This document shows, in pieces, positions 4,354 through 20,256 of a stretch of 59,372 nt of DNA (position 1 is its first letter; each line of letters starts with the position of its first letter). The stretch is taken from assembly GCA_025350815.1 (NCBI GenBank), contig JANXXE010000134.1, forward strand, positions 1-59,372, written 5' to 3'. The notes beneath the pieces are model-generated. The model had not been told where the DNA came from and made no database searches. It was given only the letters and a program-made list of their open reading frames with translations. The stretch is from Myxococcales bacterium (GTDB taxonomy: Bacteria > Myxococcota_A > Polyangia > Fen-1088). Position numbers and translations under genes: made by a program.

Positions 4354-8058
<3,705 letters not shown>

Positions 8059-11863: not shown

Positions 11864-13495
11864 TCAGTATTTGTAGGCCAGCCCCAGCGTTGACCGGTAG
11901 GTCAGGGTGCCAAGGCGGGGGGCATTCGCTTCAATGCCGTTTCGGCTTTCCTGGTGCCGCAGATAAAAGTTCACCAGCTCGATCGATCCTTCCAGCGTAA
12001 AGCCACGCCCGATGGGCCAAGCGCCCCACGCGCCAAGCGCGGTGACCAGCGCCTGCGGCCGGGTGATCTGGACATCGGGCAGTTCCAGGGTCTGTCGAAA
12101 GACGCTCCACCCGACGGAGGCCATCGGTGCCAGCGACAGCCGCCCGACGTCGAAGATGTACAGGCCGGCGACTTCCAGACCGAGTTCGGACAGGGTGTGT
12201 CGGGTGACGCTGCCGGGAAGGGCATCCGCGCGTCCTGTGCTGAGGCCCAGGCGCGGCACCAGTGTGATCCGCGGCAGGTCGACGGCCCATCCCACTTGCA
12301 CCCCCAGCATGGGCGACAGCCCGGATTGCAGAGGGCCGTGCAACAAAGCGCCCGCCGTCGGACCGTGCGCCCACACGACCTCGGTCTCGCCCTTGCGCAC
12401 CACCTGGGCCAAGGGGATTGGGCGCATGGCTTCCGCGGCCAGGGTCAGGGTCTCGCCGGTGCGCAAGGTCAGGTCAGCCTCGTACACATTTGTCCGGGTG
12501 CGCATGCGGACGCGTACGGGGCCGGGTGGCAACAGCACCGGGCGCCGCGGCGTTTTGACGAACGCCTCCACAATGACGCCGTCGACCGCGCCGACGGCGC
12601 TGGTTCCGACAGACGTCACCAGGTACTCGCCTGGCGTCACCAGCACCAACTGCGCCAGATCGCCCGTGGTGCGTACGTCGGTCAGAATCGGATCCGCGCG
12701 CCCGCGCAGATCGTAGTCGAAGGTCGCGTGTTGCGAGCCGACGATTGTCGCCATGGATGTCTTGAGCGCCTGCTCGGATGCGTATCCGTACGCCTCGCCC
12801 AGGGTCACCAGGCCGTCGCCGTTGGCGTCCCCCGGCCCCCGCAGCGCTGCCAGAAAGTGGTGCGTGAAGATTGACGAGCGCAGGGCGTCTGATTCCTGCG
12901 CGTCCTCGCCCGCGGCTGACGACGTGATGATCGCGTAGCCCTCGTTGCGCAGCTGATCTTGCACGCCAATCTGAAAAGGCGCGATTTGCCGGCCGCCCTT
13001 GACCCGCGTCAAGGTGCCCGTGCGGCAGGCGTCCAGTAGCAAGATTTTCAGCTTGGCGGGCGACAGGCGCACCAGTTTGCTGAATTCTTCGGTCGGCAAT
13101 TCCGTGCCGCCCAGATGCAGCGTTTGCCCATCGGCGTGGCCCGAGTAGTAGACGAACAGCACCGCCTCACCGCCGCCCCGGACGTCCTGTTGGATGGACA
13201 GGTTCAGATCCACCAGGGCGCCGCGCACCTTGCTGGCCGTGGGCGCCGTCAGGCGCACGATGTGGTCGCCGGGAAAGCCACCCAGCTTCAAGAGAGTCTC
13301 GGCCACAGCGTGGACGTCCGACTCGGCGTAGCGCAGCGTCACCTCGTGGGGTTCGCCGCGGTTCGCCCCAATCAGCAGCGCGTAGCGCTTGACGTCGGCG
13401 GTCGCGGGACCCGCCGCCAGAATGACCGCCAGACCGGCGGCGCCCACCGCCCAGCTGGGGCGCCTCTTACGACCGGGCACGCTGGGCATGGTCAT
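11864..13495 (-). CDS. Secreted caspase-like protease with predicted C-terminal beta-barrel
   Basis: The 543-residue protein begins with a signal peptide (about residues 10-33). A peptidase C14/caspase p20-like domain follows, with the catalytic dyad visible: His120 in VYYSGHADG and Cys157 in LLLDACRTG. A middle beta-rich region (about 280-390) is followed by a C-terminal segment (about 400-543) of alternating hydrophobic strands ending in an aromatic residue (LAYKY), which looks like an outer-membrane barrel. It is the last gene of an operon behind an ECF sigma and an anti-sigma gene. An AGGA 9 bases upstream of ATG 13489 makes that a good alternative start. Confidence 0.75.
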   Translation of the reverse strand: MTMPSVPGRKRRPSWAVGAAGLAVILAAGPATADVKRYALLIGANRGEPHEVTLRYAESDVHAVAETLLKLGGFPGDHIVRLTAPTASKVRGALVDLNLSIQQDVRGGGEAVLFVYYSGHADGQTLHLGGTELPTEEFSKLVRLSPAKLKILLLDACRTGTLTRVKGGRQIAPFQIGVQDQLRNEGYAIITSSAAGEDAQESDALRSSIFTHHFLAALRGPGDANGDGLVTLGEAYGYASEQALKTSMATIVGSQHATFDYDLRGRADPILTDVRTTGDLAQLVLVTPGEYLVTSVGTSAVGAVDGVIVEAFVKTPRRPVLLPPGPVRVRMRTRTNVYEADLTLRTGETLTLAAEAMRPIPLAQVVRKGETEVVWAHGPTAGALLHGPLQSGLSPMLGVQVGWAVDLPRITLVPRLGLSTGRADALPGSVTRHTLSELGLEVAGLYIFDVGRLSLAPMASVGWSVFRQTLELPDVQITRPQALVTALGAWGAWPIGRGFTLEGSIELVNFYLRHQESRNGIEANAPRLGTLTYRSTLGLAYKY

Positions 13496-13514
13496 GGATC
13501 CTAGCGCGTTCTGC

Positions 13515-14381
13515 CTAGCGCGTTTTTGGCTGCGCGATCTTCGTAATTTCCTGGCGGGCCTCGACGCAGGGCAGCCCCAGGGGGCCAATGTCGGGCGCTG
13601 GCCGTCCGTTGTTCCCGGCCAAGGACTGGGCCCGGCGTGCGGCAGCGACTACGTCACTGACAGCGATGGGGGCAGCGCAGCGGACCGCGACGATAATCTC
13701 GCGGCCGAGCGTGCCGTCCAGTTCGACCGCGCTCGGCAGGGGCAGATCGCGTCCTGGCTGAATCTTCTGCGCCGTTTCCCCCGGGGGAAAATAGATGGAG
13801 ATCTGCCCGGCACCATCGACGGCCACCACCGTCAGGAAACCAGCGTCGCTGCCGTTATAACGGAACTGCAACCGATCACCCGGGTGTAGCGGTTCGCCCA
13901 GGTGCAAGGTGCCTGCGCTTTCTTGGTCGGGATGTTTCACGTACGTCGACAGGCTAAAGCCGCCCTTTGTGCGCGTGTCGGGCGGGGCCACGCCGGACGA
14001 TGGCATGAGCAGGGCCAGCGCCATCACCACGGCGGCCGCCGAAAGGCCGACGGGCAAGGCGAGGCGGGGCGCCCACCCGAACAGCCAGCGGCGCTGACTT
14101 GTCGTCGCCTGGGCGCGGGACAGGGCATCGGCTGCCAGTGCGGCAAGATTGGCCGTCGAAGCAAAAGTGGCGCGGCTTTCCTGTAGCCGATTGTGTGCCT
14201 GCCCGCAGGCCGCACAAAGGCCGATATGGCCCAGCGTCGCGGCCCGTTCTGCAACGGAAAGCTCGCCCGTGGCCAGCTGATCCAGCGTGAGGTCGGAGGC
14301 GCAGCCCGGCCCCAACCGTCTGCGCGCGGGCGCTCCGGGCAGGGCGATGTCGTTGGGGGGATCTGTCGGTGGCTCGGTCAC
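13515..14381 (-). CDS. Membrane-anchored anti-sigma factor with DUF4384-like periplasmic domain
   Basis: This 288-residue protein starts with a zinc-binding anti-sigma domain carrying HIGLCAAC (His52-x3-Cys56-x2-Cys59), followed by one transmembrane helix (about residues 107-126). The periplasmic part (about 140-240) resembles DUF4384: LHPGDRLQFRYN, GFLTVVAVDGAGQISIYFP and the REIIVAV strand. DUF4384 domains often accompany caspase-like proteins, which fits the gene downstream. Its ATG overlaps the sigma factor stop by four bases, a strong sign of co-translation. Inferred role: hold the sigma factor inactive until an envelope signal arrives. Confidence 0.8.
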   Translation of the reverse strand: MTEPPTDPPNDIALPGAPARRRLGPGCASDLTLDQLATGELSVAERAATLGHIGLCAACGQAHNRLQESRATFASTANLAALAADALSRAQATTSQRRWLFGWAPRLALPVGLSAAAVVMALALLMPSSGVAPPDTRTKGGFSLSTYVKHPDQESAGTLHLGEPLHPGDRLQFRYNGSDAGFLTVVAVDGAGQISIYFPPGETAQKIQPGRDLPLPSAVELDGTLGREIIVAVRCAAPIAVSDVVAAARRAQSLAGNNGRPAPDIGPLGLPCVEARQEITKIAQPKTR

Positions 14382-14938
14382 CCGGATTCTCCTTCAGTCT
14401 TTGGAACCCCAAGGCCCCCTGGCGGGGCAACGCCGGCTTCCGCCAGCAATTGCCGGGCTTGCGCCACGAAACGTTCCAGGCGGTAGCCGATGGTGCGGCG
14501 CGAGACCCCCAGCAGGCGCGCGATCTCGGCTTGGTCCATTTCGTCCACGAAGTAATAGACGGCAATCTCGGCCAGGTCCTGGGGCAATTGCGCCAGCAGG
14601 TTGTGCACGGTCGCCGCGGTCTCGGCAGGGCCCGTGGCGGTGGGTGGTATCGCTTTTGCCGAATCGCCCACCGACGCGAGGCGCGCCCGTCGGCGTCGCG
14701 CATCGCGCACGCGGTTCAGGCACAGATTCGTGGTTATGCGGTACAGCCAGGTCGACGGTTGGCTTTGTCGCCGGAAGTCCGCCACCGATTTGATGACGCG
14801 GACGAAGACCTCCTGAAGGGCATCCTCGGCCTCGCGGTCGTCGTTTAGAATGCTGCGGGCCCGGCGTCGCACCAGCGCCCCGTAGCTGCGGTAGAGGCCC
14901 TCGATCTCCGCACGATCGACCGATGGCGGGCGCCCCAC
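14378..14938 (-). CDS. ECF-family RNA polymerase sigma factor
   Basis: This 186-residue protein has the two sigma70 regions of an ECF factor. Region 2 spans about residues 12-80 (DREAEDALQEVFVRVIKSV then TWLYRITTNLCLNRVRD). Region 4 spans about 115-170, where MDQAEIARLLGVSRRTIGYRL is the DNA-binding helix-turn-helix. The start is a GTG with no clear ribosome site, so the transcript may be leaderless or the start weak. It is the first gene of the sigma/anti-sigma/caspase operon and is divergent from argD. Confidence 0.88.
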   Translation of the reverse strand: MGRPPSVDRAEIEGLYRSYGALVRRRARSILNDDREAEDALQEVFVRVIKSVADFRRQSQPSTWLYRITTNLCLNRVRDARRRRARLASVGDSAKAIPPTATGPAETAATVHNLLAQLPQDLAEIAVYYFVDEMDQAEIARLLGVSRRTIGYRLERFVAQARQLLAEAGVAPPGGLGVPKTEGESG

Positions 14939-15014
14939 CGACCAATTAGACCGGTCGGCCGCAGCATCCGCAAGTTAGACGCCTGGGCGGCAGTTTTTGC
15001 TAATGTGGTCCGTC

Positions 15015-16217
15015 ATGTCGTTGTCCGAAGAACTTCTTGCGACCGGCCGGCGCCTGCTGATCAACAACTACAACCGATCGCCGGTTGTGATGGCTCGCGG
15101 CGAAGGCTGCGTTCTGTGGGACACCGACGGCCGTCGTTACCTTGATATGACCGCCGGCATCGCCGTCTGCGTGCTGGGCCACGGCCACGCGGGGCTTGCG
15201 CGCGCCATCGGCGAGCAAGCGGCCCGCCTGACCCACACATCCAACCTGTATTACATCGAGACGCAGATCCGTCTGGCCGAGGCGCTGTCGAAGCGGGCCT
15301 TCGCGGGCAAGGCGTTTTTCTGCAACTCGGGCGCGGAGGCCAATGAAGCGGCGCTGAAGCTGGCGCGGCGCTACCAGATCGTCGTTCGCAACCAGCCCGA
15401 CCGCACCGAATTCGTCGCCTGCGACAATAGTTTCCATGGCCGTACGTTCGGGGCGCTGTCCGTGACCGGGCAGGCCAAGTACCGGCAGGGCTTCGGGCCG
15501 CTGGTGCCGGGCGTGCGGTTCATGCCGTTCGCCGATCTGCCGGCAGCGGGTGTGGCCATTGGCGATAAGACCTGCGCGGTCATCATCGAGCCGATACAGG
15601 CCGAAGGCGGCATCAACCTACCGCCGCCGGGATATCTGCACGACCTTCGTCGCCTGTGCGCCGAACGGGGCGCGCTGTTGATTCTGGACGAAATTCAGAC
15701 CGGCGTCGGGCGCACCGGCAGTTTTTACGCCTTCGAAAAAGAAGGCACGACGCCCGACATCGTCACGCTGGCCAAGGGGCTGGCCGGCGGGGTGCCGATG
15801 GGCGCCATGCTTGCCACCGACGAGGTGGCGCGGGCGTTCGAGCCCGGGACGCACGCATCGACCTTCGGGGGCAATCCCCTGGCCTCGGCGGCGGCGGTCT
15901 ATCTTCAGAACGCCCTCGACGAGCTGGGCCTTTTGCGCAACTGCGAGGAGATGGGCGCGTATCTGCATGCGGCGCTCGAAGGCGTGGTGGCGCGGCGGCG
16001 GCCGGCGGTCCAGGCAACGCGGGGCCGGGGCCTTTTGCAGGGCCTGGTTCTGCAAGGTGAGGCCGGGCCGGTGATTGCGCGCGCCCGCGAACGCGGCCTG
16101 CTGGTGTCCGCGGCAGGCGGGAACGTCGTGCGATTCGCACCCGCGCTGATCATCGGCAAGTCCGAGATCGACGAGGCCGTGGGCGTGCTCGATACAATCT
16201 TGGCGGAGGTGTCGTGA
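15015..16217 (+). CDS. argD: Acetylornithine aminotransferase (ArgD)
   Basis: This 400-residue class-III PLP aminotransferase converts N-acetylglutamate semialdehyde and glutamate to N-acetylornithine in arginine synthesis, and often serves in lysine synthesis too. Visible motifs: FCNSGAEANEAALKLARRY, FHGRTFGAL, ILDEIQTGVGRTG for the PLP ring Asp, and Lys254 in TLAKGLAGGVPMGA for the Schiff base. ATG 15015 gives the family length; a TTG at 14997 is possible. It overlaps argF by one base, so the pair forms an arginine operon. Confidence 0.93.
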   Translation: MSLSEELLATGRRLLINNYNRSPVVMARGEGCVLWDTDGRRYLDMTAGIAVCVLGHGHAGLARAIGEQAARLTHTSNLYYIETQIRLAEALSKRAFAGKAFFCNSGAEANEAALKLARRYQIVVRNQPDRTEFVACDNSFHGRTFGALSVTGQAKYRQGFGPLVPGVRFMPFADLPAAGVAIGDKTCAVIIEPIQAEGGINLPPPGYLHDLRRLCAERGALLILDEIQTGVGRTGSFYAFEKEGTTPDIVTLAKGLAGGVPMGAMLATDEVARAFEPGTHASTFGGNPLASAAAVYLQNALDELGLLRNCEEMGAYLHAALEGVVARRRPAVQATRGRGLLQGLVLQGEAGPVIARARERGLLVSAAGGNVVRFAPALIIGKSEIDEAVGVLDTILAEVS

Positions 16218-17200
16218 TGGCCCGCAAACGAGATTTTCTTAGCTTCTGGGACCTTCAGGATGGGGAAATAGAGGCGCTGCTGACGCGGGCGGAGGAATTT
16301 CGCTTCTTGCGCGCGGTGCGTGCGCCGCACGCGACGCGGCCGGGTCGCGTGCTGGGGATGATTTTCGAGAAGGCCTCGACCCGCACCCGCGCCAGCTTCG
16401 AGATAGCCATCTACCAGCTTGGCGGTCACGCGGTTGTCCTGGGCAAGGGCGATTCGCAAATTGGACGGGGTGAACCCGTACGCGACACCGCGCGCGTTCT
16501 GGCCGGCTATTGCGACGCTGTCATGGTGCGGACTTTCGGCCAGGACATCGCTGAGGAACTGGCCGCGTACGCCGCGGTGCCGGTGATCAACGGCCTGACG
16601 GATTTGCTGCACCCGTGCCAGGTCTTGGCCGACCTGCAGACCGTCTTTGCGCATTTCAGCGGCGGCCTGTCTGTCCGGGCTGGTGCAGGCGCGCCGGCGT
16701 CGGCAAATTCTGGCAGCGTACTGCCGGTCCTGCGCCAGCAACGTTACGCCTGGGTGGGCGACGGCAACAACATGGCGAACTCGTGGATCGAGGCGGCGGG
16801 CATTCTGGGCCTGGACCTGATGCTGGCCTGCCCCGAGGGCTACGAGCCGGACGCCAAGGTTTTGGCCCGCGCGCGGCAGACCGAGCGGGGGCGCATCACC
16901 CTGAGCCGCGATCCCGGCGAGGCGGTGGCGGGGCGCCAGGTCATCTCGACAGACGTTTTCACGTCGATGGGGCAGGAACAGGAAAGCGAAAAACGCCTGC
17001 GCGCGTTCGCCGGATTTTGCCTGGACGCACCGCTGGTGGCCCGCGCCGATGCGCGCGCGATTGTCCTGCATTGTCTGCCCGCCCACCGCGGCGAGGAGAT
17101 CAGCGACGACGTGATCGAAGGGCCGCAAAGCCTGGTCTGGCAGCAGGCCGAGAACCGCCTGCACGCCCAAAAGGCGTTGCTTGAGTGGGCGCTTGGTTGA
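16217..17200 (+). CDS. argF: Ornithine carbamoyltransferase (ArgF)
   Basis: This enzyme makes citrulline from ornithine and carbamoyl phosphate. The protein is 327 residues, with the carbamoyl-phosphate loop FEKASTRTRASFE, the HPCQ motif in LLHPCQVLADL, and HCLPAHRGEEIS with the active-site Cys. An apparent insertion of about 18 residues, rich in Gly/Ala/Ser, sits between TVFAHF and RYAWVGDGNNMANSW, where the family normally has a short turn. A GGAGGT ribosome site lies 6 bases before ATG 16217, preferred over GTG 16214. Translationally coupled to argD. Confidence 0.93.
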   Translation: MARKRDFLSFWDLQDGEIEALLTRAEEFRFLRAVRAPHATRPGRVLGMIFEKASTRTRASFEIAIYQLGGHAVVLGKGDSQIGRGEPVRDTARVLAGYCDAVMVRTFGQDIAEELAAYAAVPVINGLTDLLHPCQVLADLQTVFAHFSGGLSVRAGAGAPASANSGSVLPVLRQQRYAWVGDGNNMANSWIEAAGILGLDLMLACPEGYEPDAKVLARARQTERGRITLSRDPGEAVAGRQVISTDVFTSMGQEQESEKRLRAFAGFCLDAPLVARADARAIVLHCLPAHRGEEISDDVIEGPQSLVWQQAENRLHAQKALLEWALG

Positions 17201-17796
17201 CCGTCCCCGACCACATTCCCGGCCTTGGGGCGAGGACAGATTGCCCCAGGCCCAATCCGTCTGCTGACTTCGGACGGTTTTCCCTTAGTCCCACCGAGGC
17301 CTTCGTGCTGTCGCGCGTGGACGGCGTGTCCAGCTACGAACAGCTGTGTGTGGTGACGGGCCTCGGGTTTGCGCGGACCTTCGAGGTTTTGCGCAAGCTC
17401 AAGCGGGACGCCTTCATCCTGGGCGCCCGCGACGGCAATCCGGTGCGGCCCCAGGCGGGCGCGTCCCTCCTGGAAAGGCTCGATGATGGCTCGCCGGTCG
17501 ATCCCGCGCTGCTGTCGGGCGGGCCGGATCTCGCGCCCGAGCTCAAGATGCGCCTGGTCCGGGTGCACCGGCGGCTGGCAAATCTGTCCCCGCACGAACT
17601 GCTGGGGGTCTCGCCTGGTACGGCGGGCGGTGCGCTCAAACGCGCGTATTTCGTGGCTTCGAAGGAATGCCACCCGGATCGTTTTTACCGCAAGGACATC
17701 GGCCCCTTTCGCGCGATCCTGGGCGAGATCTTCACGCACCTGTCGCGGGCCTTCAGGCTGCTGCAAACCGATTCCGACGCCGCCCAGAAAAAGTAG
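17185..17796 (+). CDS. J-domain protein with N-terminal winged-helix-like domain
   Basis: This 203-residue protein carries a C-terminal DnaJ-like J domain (about residues 125-195) with the essential HPD tripeptide (ECHPDRF) in the loop between helices. The N-terminal part (LSPTEAFVLSRVDGVSSYEQL, then FEVLRKLKRDAFIL) resembles the small winged-helix-like domain found with DUF4388/PATAN proteins in Myxococcota. The start overlaps argF by 16 bases; TTG 17197 is an alternative. It sits just upstream of a DUF4388 protein and a DnaK paralogue, suggesting it is their dedicated co-chaperone. No zinc-finger or Gly/Phe region is present. Confidence 0.75.
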   Translation: MGAWLTVPDHIPGLGARTDCPRPNPSADFGRFSLSPTEAFVLSRVDGVSSYEQLCVVTGLGFARTFEVLRKLKRDAFILGARDGNPVRPQAGASLLERLDDGSPVDPALLSGGPDLAPELKMRLVRVHRRLANLSPHELLGVSPGTAGGALKRAYFVASKECHPDRFYRKDIGPFRAILGEIFTHLSRAFRLLQTDSDAAQKK

Positions 17797-18408: not shown

Positions 18409-20256
18409 ATGCTAGAGCGAGTTATCGGAATTGATCTTGGCACCACCAATTCCTGCGTGGCACTGGTCGAAGGCACGACGCCCGTGGTTGTCGCCAATCG
18501 TGGCGGATACAAGACGACGCCGTCGGTGGTGGCCATCGCCGAGACGGGGCGCCGCCTGGTCGGCCACATCGCCAAGCGACAGGCGGTTACCAACGCCGAG
18601 AACACCGCCTACGCCTTCAAGCGCCTGATAGGTCGCAACTGGAATTCGCCCGCGGTGCAGACTGTGCGGGATCTGGTGTCGTACCCCCTGGTCGAGGGAC
18701 CCCACCAGGATGTGCGGGTGAAACTGCGCGAGCAGGTCTATTCGGTGCCCGAGATGTCCGCCTTCATCCTGCAAGAGATGAAATACATCGCGCAGGCGCA
18801 CGCGGGCGGCGAGGTGGCCAAGGCCGTCGTGACGGTGCCCGCGCACTTCAACGACAGCCAGCGGCAGGCCACCAAGGACGCGGGCCGCATCGCCGGCCTT
18901 GACGTCATCCGCATCATCAACGAGCCCACTGCCGCGGCCCTGGCCTACGGTTTTGGCAAAAACGTCGACGGGAAGATCGCGGTGTTCGATCTGGGCGGCG
19001 GCACCTTTGACATCTCGTTCCTGGAGATCAGCAACGGCGTTTTCGAGGTTCTATCAACGGCCGGCGACACGTTCCTGGGCGGTGAGGATTTTGACAAGCG
19101 CGTCGTCGATTGGCTGCTGGCGGGTTTCGCCAAGGATCACAAGATGGACCTGCGCCAGGATCCGATGGCGATGCAGCGGATCAAGGACGCGGCCGAACGG
19201 GCCAAATGCGATCTGTCCACGCTGCCCGAGGTTGAGATCAACCTGCCGTTCATCGTTTCGACCGGCAAGAATCAGGCGCTGCATCTGCAGCGTGTGTTGT
19301 CCCGGCGCAAGTTGGAGGAACTGACGCGCGATCTTATCGAGCGCACGGCGGAGATCTGCCGGCTGACCATGGTCGACGCCGGCATCGATCGTGCCGAGCT
19401 GCTGGATGTCGTTCTGGTAGGTGGGATGACCCGCATGCCCAAGGTGCAAACGACGGTGGCGCAGTTTTTTGGGCGTGAGCCGTGCAAGGGTGTTCACCCC
19501 GACGAGGCCGTCGCGATGGGGGCGGCCATACAGGGCACCGCCCTGGTCGACGGTCTGATGGACGTCCTGCTGATGGACGTCACGCCGCATTCGCTGGGAA
19601 TCATGATTGCCGGCGGGTTCTTCCACAAGCTGATCGCCCGCAATACAACGGTGCCCACATCGAAGAGCCACGTCTTCACCACGGTCAGGGACGACCAGAC
19701 GTCGGTGAAGATCTTGGTTTACCAGGGCGAATCCGAGCGCGCCGACCAGAACGAGGCACTGGGCGAATTTGTCCTGTCGGGCTTGCGCAAGGCCCGTCGC
19801 AGCGAGGTGGAGGTAGAGGTCACGTTCGAGATCTCGGCCGATGGCATCGTCAGCGTGTCGGCCAAGGATTTGGAAACCGGGCAGCAGCAGTCGATCACCG
19901 TGGTGTCCAGCAGCGGACTGACCGAGCGCGAAATAGCCGTCATGGCCACCGAAAGCGAAGATCACCTGGTCGCCTTGGCGACCGAGCAAGACACCGAAAG
20001 GGCACGCCAGGCCGTCGAGCATTTGGTCCACGAGGCCGAGTCACTGCTGCCCCAGGTGGAAAAAATTCTGGCCGGAACGCCCTTCGACAAGGAGAGCCTG
20101 GGGGCGGTGCGGTCGCTGCTGGTCGAGGCGCGATCGGCCGTCGAGCGGCGGGATGCGTCGGCCATTGCCGGTGTGTCCGAGTCCCTGTCGCGCACGGTGA
20201 AGATGTTTCAGGGGTTACTGGGCAGCCCGCGGTCGGATCGGTCCGACGGCGCCTAG
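18409..20256 (+). CDS. DnaK-family (Hsp70) chaperone, accessory paralogue
   Basis: This 615-residue Hsp70 protein has the ATPase phosphate-1 motif [17 protein letters not shown], then [31 protein letters not shown], and a substrate-binding half beginning near residue 385 ([21 protein letters not shown]). The nucleotide-binding domain is close to classical DnaK, but the C-terminus lacks the usual EEVD-like end. No grpE is nearby, while a J-domain gene, a DUF4388 gene and a TPR gene flank it. That context suggests a specialised chaperone or regulatory switch rather than the housekeeping DnaK. I therefore leave the symbol blank. Confidence 0.85.

Follow-up and report, generated by a model that had tools for sequence, protein, structure and literature searches.

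A sigma factor, an anti-sigma factor and a caspase-barrel protein in one operon

We analyzed contig JANXXE010000134.1 of a Myxococcales bacterium (assembly GCA_025350815.1), a stretch of 59,372 nt that we refer to as the window, and focused on a three-gene operon located at positions 14938-11864. On the minus strand the operon encodes, tightly packed and in this order, an extracytoplasmic function (ECF) sigma factor, a membrane anti-sigma factor and a protein that combines a caspase domain with a predicted outer-membrane barrel. The sigma and anti-sigma genes share 4 bases (14378-14381). Next to the operon, in divergent orientation, lie argD and an ornithine carbamoyltransferase gene (window 14997-17200), and these two genes also adjoin the closest homologue, which shows 55% identity (locus L034 in genome G002). 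The following features, all on the minus strand, were assigned:

14378..14938, minus strand: ECF sigma factor, 186 amino acids, GTG start; Sigma70_r2 (E 1.1e-19) and Sigma70_r4_2 (E 1.2e-9)
13515..14381, minus strand: membrane anti-sigma factor, 288 amino acids, with a zinc-binding cytoplasmic part, one transmembrane helix and a DUF4384-like periplasmic domain (open reading frame, Pfam and model)
14205..14228, minus strand: HxxxCxxC zinc motif (H52, C56, C59), 96-97% conserved in 70 anti-sigma factors
14001..14063, minus strand: anti-sigma transmembrane segment, about residues 107-127 (hydropathy; helix 108-125 in the model)
13962..13973, minus strand: anti-sigma motif R137-T-K139-G140 in a disordered linker directly outside the membrane, proposed cut after K139
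13683..13886, minus strand: DUF4384-like periplasmic domain (Pfam PF14326)
11864..13495, minus strand: protein of 543 amino acids with signal peptide, caspase domain, beta sandwich and 8-strand outer-membrane barrel (Peptidase_C14, model and Foldseek)
13397..13495, minus strand: signal peptide, about residues 1-33 (n-region, hydrophobic stretch and ATA/D site by sequence; homologues with similar leaders)
12830..13390, minus strand: caspase (metacaspase-type) domain with His120 and Cys157 (Pfam PF00656)
12995..13006, minus strand: caspase loop motif R164-V-K166-G167, 9 residues after Cys157, proposed self-processing site
12794..12829, minus strand: EF-hand-like 12-residue loop DANGDGLVTLGE, D223 to E234, in the caspase domain
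11873..12370, minus strand: 8-strand outer-membrane barrel, residues 376-541, protein end YKY (model; OmpA/OmpX/NspA matches)

The open frame of the third gene extends from 13588, and the ATG at 13495 is its likely start. The encoded protein matches Peptidase_C14 (PF00656) with an E-value of 7e-12 and 45.9 bits (cut-off 21.4), and the family sequence profile is closest in the PDB to metacaspases-4, -1 and -9. H120, D155 and C157 are invariant in 50/50 homologues, as is D60, which aligns with the conserved Asp of the metacaspase 'ND' pair; we take D60 and D155 to be the acidic residues of an Arg/Lys-binding pocket. An AlphaFold model computed from 50 aligned homologues reached a mean predicted local distance difference test (pLDDT) of 89.3 and a predicted template modelling score (pTM) of 0.84. 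It places a small beta domain (residues ~281-352) between the caspase domain and a barrel of eight strands (376-386, 396-406, 411-423, 433-445, 453-470, 475-496, 499-512 and 528-541). Foldseek searches of this model against the PDB returned caspase-7, caspase-6 and metacaspases (1f1j, 3s70, 8a53, 4f6o) as well as OmpA, OmpX and NspA (9fzc, 1qj9, 1p4t). The signal peptide, the eight-strand barrel and the C-terminal aromatic residue are those of an OmpA/OmpX-type protein, and given such a barrel and an N-terminal domain that is exported first, the caspase domain should be periplasmic. A preliminary description made from the sequence alone had named all three genes of the operon, the four-base overlap, the catalytic pair His120/Cys157 and a probable barrel; the present analysis agrees on each of these, and with the ATG at 13495 the residue numbering is the same.

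Features of a TonB-dependent receptor with a signalling domain were not found in the caspase-barrel protein, whose sole Pfam match is Peptidase_C14 and whose barrel has eight strands. Assignment as an EACC1-associated caspase was rejected, as NF047832 scored 64.3 bits at a cut-off of 140. Within the EF-hand-like loop D223 and E234 are invariant and D227 is nearly so in the 50 homologues, and a related caspase (P0001) gives a weak EF-hand match; at the sequence level this suggests that the caspase is controlled by calcium. Longer caspase homologues of ~760 amino acids (L084, L070, L092, L097) carry a different C-terminal part in which G..GLVN units recur frequently and whose end is often aromatic, and in the two that were scanned no Pfam family besides the caspase was found. 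Caspase paralogues seem to swap their C-terminal module.

The anti-sigma factor was modelled with a pLDDT of 85 as a helical part (residues 30-100), a transmembrane helix (108-125) and a beta domain (143-281). The linker between the last two is disordered in the model (pLDDT <50 at 128-136; mean of 51 for block 131-140), and from residue 143 on the pLDDT of the periplasmic domain exceeds 95. In the protein scan DUF4384 scored 26.6 bits, just below the cut-off of 27, and in the genome scan 29.5 bits, above it. It is the sole Pfam match of this protein with E-values up to 10, which leaves no FecR-type domain in it, and a FecR/TonB-type system was consequently rejected on the Pfam matches. There was no match to the RseA family in Pfam or NCBIfam, and the ChrR-type family TIGR02451 stayed at 14.7 bits (cut-off 124.5) although the HxxxCxxC motif is present.

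The gene trio is a widespread module of Myxococcota

We investigated the neighborhood of caspase homologues in two partly overlapping sets, one composed of 59 genomes related to that of the window (74 strong caspase homologues) and one drawn from a collection of named genomes (80 homologous loci). In the first set the sigma and anti-sigma genes lie directly upstream on the same strand at 54 of the 74 loci; 2 further loci have the anti-sigma gene at a contig end, 7 have the sigma gene downstream and 6 show no sigma gene nearby. The trio was observed at 69/80 loci of the second set, among them loci of Polyangium, Minicystis, Sorangium, Myxococcus, Pyxidicoccus, Archangium, Nannocystis, Anaeromyxobacter and many uncultured relatives, while 4/80 caspase genes had no sigma gene nearby. 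Most neighboring trio genes overlap by 4 bases. As the same three genes recur in identical order at more than 100 loci (54 + 69, with the partial overlap of the sets), the arrangement is more than chance. A reverse search starting from the anti-sigma profile gave the same picture: at all of the 22 top-listed loci (L270-L291, the locus of the window included) the anti-sigma gene is followed by a caspase gene. The trio is therefore a widespread module of Myxococcota that occurs in many copies, and the linkage between caspase and sigma genes is strong but not absolute: the three genes do not always occur together.

A second complete trio is encoded in the same genome as the window (L002/L090; genome G000, contig C172, 80949-82927) with 33% identity; its caspase has the motif TRTKG and its anti-sigma factor the motif NRLKG, and its protein end is AMAYEF. 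A variant order with the caspase gene first and the sigma gene downstream was found at L051, L064, L068, L073, L074 and L105.

Both partners share a motif that varies in concert

A near-invariant motif, usually R-x-K-G and in its longer form [T]R-x-K-G, is present in both the caspase and the anti-sigma factor, and in both proteins it lies in a disordered segment: in the caspase in the loop after the catalytic Cys (pLDDT <50 at 166-168 and 174-178), in the anti-sigma factor in the juxtamembrane linker. K166 and G167 are invariant in 50/50 caspase homologues. In an alignment of 51 anti-sigma sequences with a mean identity of only 25%, K139 and G140 are the sole invariant columns besides Met1, and R137 is conserved in more than 90%. 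Chance as the origin of the motif was ruled out by comparison with shuffled sequences: of 69 post-membrane anti-sigma segments, 66 contain KG (mean of 15 in shuffled sequences) and 57 contain R.KG (1.5 in shuffled sequences).

For better evaluation we regarded several groups of related proteins. Zinc-type anti-sigma factors without DUF4384 (L218-L220) lack the motif, as do DUF4384 anti-sigma factors without a caspase (L292, L294); together with a CHAT-linked DUF4384 protein at L213, the latter two rule out that KG is a mere feature of DUF4384. Nor is it general in bacterial caspases, as the motif was found in 0/5 caspases without sigma from other phyla (L300-L304) and in 0/3 others without sigma (L120, L131, L132). 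The DUF4384 protein at L213 (2269-3276; genome G019, contig C18) is a lipoprotein encoded directly downstream of a TPR-CHAT-like protease frame, CHAT being assigned by eye.

A second, more distant caspase subfamily with DAC.SY around the Cys likewise shows linkage to sigma and anti-sigma genes. We sampled it from the 59 relatives and read its motifs by eye. Here Arg replaces Lys in both motifs, for example ERGPGG and FSVRGG at L118 or WPRGPGG and LAARGT at L129, and one member (L113) has Lys in both partners (FDKGAGG, FRAKGG). Among the 68 pairs from genomes that hold two or more of them, the Lys or Arg residue (P1) is concordant between the partners in 66 (50.7 expected), a value that was reached in 0/20,000 within-genome shuffles. 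Genome G056 alone contains eight or more sigma/anti-sigma/caspase pairs, whose motifs are of distinct Lys and Arg types; each of the eight pairs listed is concordant at P1, five with Lys and three with Arg, which makes this genome a good place to seek insulation between pathways. The Arg at P3 is associated between the partners as well: 77 pairs have it in both proteins, 18 in neither, and the mixed classes contain 15 each (Fisher p 5e-5). On the tree, 8/11 losses of the anti-sigma P3 Arg fall on branches where the caspase is without it (p 0.007).

A proposed pathway from the envelope to the DNA

Regarding the data as a whole, we favor, with somewhat better than even confidence, the reading that the products of the operon carry a signal from the envelope to the DNA, with the caspase-fold protease acting as site-1 protease on the anti-sigma factor encoded beside it. 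From the sequence and the model, the caspase is best read as a metacaspase-type Arg/Lys protease that would process itself and make the first cut in the anti-sigma factor. In animal caspases, the loop after the Cys is the processing site. In the proposed sequence of events, the caspase protein would be exported and anchored in the outer membrane by its C-terminal barrel, with the caspase domain in the periplasm. As a trigger, the barrel may sense a ligand or damage, or its assembly may fail so that unanchored precursor stays in the periplasm; other envelope stress systems are known to respond to defects in outer-membrane assembly. Once triggered, the caspase would process its own loop after K166. 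In the anti-sigma factor it would cut after K139, at a point that lies between the membrane helix and the DUF4384 domain. Parting this domain from the membrane stub would correspond to the way in which regulated intramembrane proteolysis normally begins, and an ordinary site-2 protease would then finish the shortened anti-sigma factor and release the sigma factor. Genes of the site-2 protease family are present in the genome. The preliminary description had proposed that an outer-membrane-anchored protease releases the sigma factor: the co-occurrence in both search directions, the predicted structure and the shared candidate cleavage motif speak for it, and the cleavage itself we infer from these.

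Several observations weigh against this reading. The proposed cut site lies at the inner membrane, a long way from a caspase domain held in the outer membrane, and this distance would have to be bridged: the barrel would relay the signal or serve as a tether, in which case only unassembled precursor may reach the inner membrane. The covariation at P1 stems largely from one old subfamily split plus one or two reversals (L113 being clear and L111 ambiguous), it leans on the second-subfamily motifs that were read by eye, and it is broken by mismatches at L262, L204/L205 and L044. At P3 the concordance within genomes is marginal, as 853/20,000 shuffles reach it. Moreover, the anti-sigma factor of L217 has an RNKG motif without an adjacent caspase, and the caspases of L038, L040 and L041 retain the motif without a nearby sigma gene; the genomes of L038 and L040 hold a separate sigma/anti-sigma pair with matching motif (L215, L216). 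The anti-sigma factor of L167 is without the motif Lys, and L274/L275 have K[AS]G instead of KG. Finally, a two-box scan of 70 upstream regions revealed no shared sigma-dependent promoter clearly above shuffled sequences, which does not exclude autoregulation.

Part of the data could also be explained if the motif is bound rather than cut. The anti-sigma linker would then be a pseudosubstrate in the caspase active site that joins the two proteins or silences the caspase, similar to the contact between barrel protein and anti-sigma factor in cell-surface signalling; the caspase would have other targets, and sigma would be freed by lost contact. Tight binding would also yield a shared recognition motif, but a Lys-Gly that is invariant both in a flexible linker of one partner and in the usual self-processing loop of the other resembles a scissile site, and the catalytic residues are strictly conserved. 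We therefore regard a pseudosubstrate as unlikely. Another possibility is that the cuts are made by a third, trypsin-like protease, which would activate the caspase and degrade the anti-sigma factor at their motifs, with the caspase as the output. Although both motifs are exposed basic sites, the anti-sigma motif follows the presence of a caspase and not anti-sigma factors in general, and Lys and Arg at P1 covary pair by pair within a genome, which a common protease would not require; we consider this explanation very improbable.

It was also considered that the caspase is mainly a product of sigma-dependent regulation, an effector of death, predation or defence in a self-regulated operon, and that the anti-sigma motif is a structural feature of a DUF4384 subtype. 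Operon linkage alone would fit, and PMC3501461 proposed a role in autolysis during the development of Myxococcus. However, the linker that carries the motif is disordered, the motif is absent from DUF4384 anti-sigma factors without caspase, defence neighbors were not observed, and PADLOC matches are weak (21.4 bits to PDLC02987, with a part of the model covered). We hence consider such an effector role rather improbable. A defence island was likewise rejected on the weak PADLOC matches and the housekeeping neighbors of arginine biosynthesis. The role in defence or cell death that had been suggested for the operon thus found no backing, as argD and the ornithine carbamoyltransferase gene are kept next to it in a relative.

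Relation to known systems

In the SigmaE-RseA-DegS system a membrane anti-sigma factor receives a periplasmic site-1 cut and is then processed by a site-2 protease, and the logic proposed here is alike, although the site-1 protease would be a co-encoded outer-membrane caspase and not an inner-membrane trypsin-like protease. In the FecI-FecR-FecA and FoxI-FoxR-FoxA systems, too, a sigma factor, a membrane anti-sigma factor and an outer-membrane barrel whose N-terminal domain is periplasmic act together (PMC11637429). Compared to FecI-FecR-FecA, the present operon has an 8-strand barrel instead of a TonB-dependent transporter, a caspase in place of the signalling domain, and DUF4384 rather than FecR domains in its anti-sigma factor. 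With metacaspases and orthocaspases the protein shares the caspase fold, the His-Cys dyad and the conserved Asp residues; it differs from metacaspases in being exported (as predicted) and fused to a barrel, in a processing loop 9 residues after the Cys and in having a dedicated candidate substrate. Orthocaspases are described in PMC6426788 as cutting after basic residues, with a preference for Arg/Lys.

The association of sigma factors and caspase homologues as such has been known since 2012. According to the operon passages of Asplund-Samuelsson et al. (PMC3501461), 4/5 metacaspases of M. xanthus lie in operons with sigma-70 genes, and this arrangement also occurs in Anaeromyxobacter, Haliangium, Sorangium, Ralstonia and Fibrobacter. 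Like the present operon, those of Deltaproteobacteria in these passages pair a sigma-70 family gene with a caspase homologue, and the passages describe them without an anti-sigma factor, an outer-membrane barrel, a shared motif or a cleavage mechanism. These elements go beyond the earlier work, and our searches of the open-licence literature turned up no description of any of the four. EACC2 caspase systems (PMC8195603) likewise have a caspase protein with variable C-terminal domains and a nearby ECF sigma gene; in the sections of that source dealing with them, they have an EACC2 domain and DUF1822 or TRADD-N partners, and neither a DUF4384 anti-sigma factor nor a barrel is described. In the ECF54 group a CHAT protease of the caspase clan is found near the ECF sigma gene and proteolytic control has been proposed (PMC8999054). 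Cyanobacterial caspase homologues are known to carry DUF4384 as a companion domain (PMC7475262, PMC8283722), in keeping with a functional link between caspase and DUF4384.

Other genes of the window

Two further observations were made in the window. Positions 4354-8058 encode a fused protein of 1234 amino acids with two BcrAD_BadFG ATPase stretches and DUF2229, of the 2-hydroxyacyl-CoA dehydratase activase type. The gene at positions 17185-17796 encodes a small protein whose C-terminal stretch weakly resembles DnaJ, and it lies shortly upstream of a DnaK-like gene (18409-20256).

Implications

Which substrates the caspase homologues of bacteria have, and why complex bacteria hold so many of them, is a long-standing question. 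The present data name a candidate substrate bond, K139-G140 of the co-encoded anti-sigma factor, and a candidate processing site, K166-G167, both with clean controls and directly testable. Beyond the single operon, we see an even chance that the outer-membrane-anchored caspases of Myxococcota form a large family of dedicated site-1 proteases, each of which cuts itself and its partner at R-x-K/R-G, and that the coevolved specificity helps to keep the many parallel pathways of one cell separate. If true, this would provide a physiological substrate and a role other than cell death for a bacterial metacaspase, as well as a new signal route from the outer membrane to the DNA. Caspases would then act here as signal transducers rather than as death enzymes, in a modular pathway that is present in multiple copies in a phylum of complex behavior.

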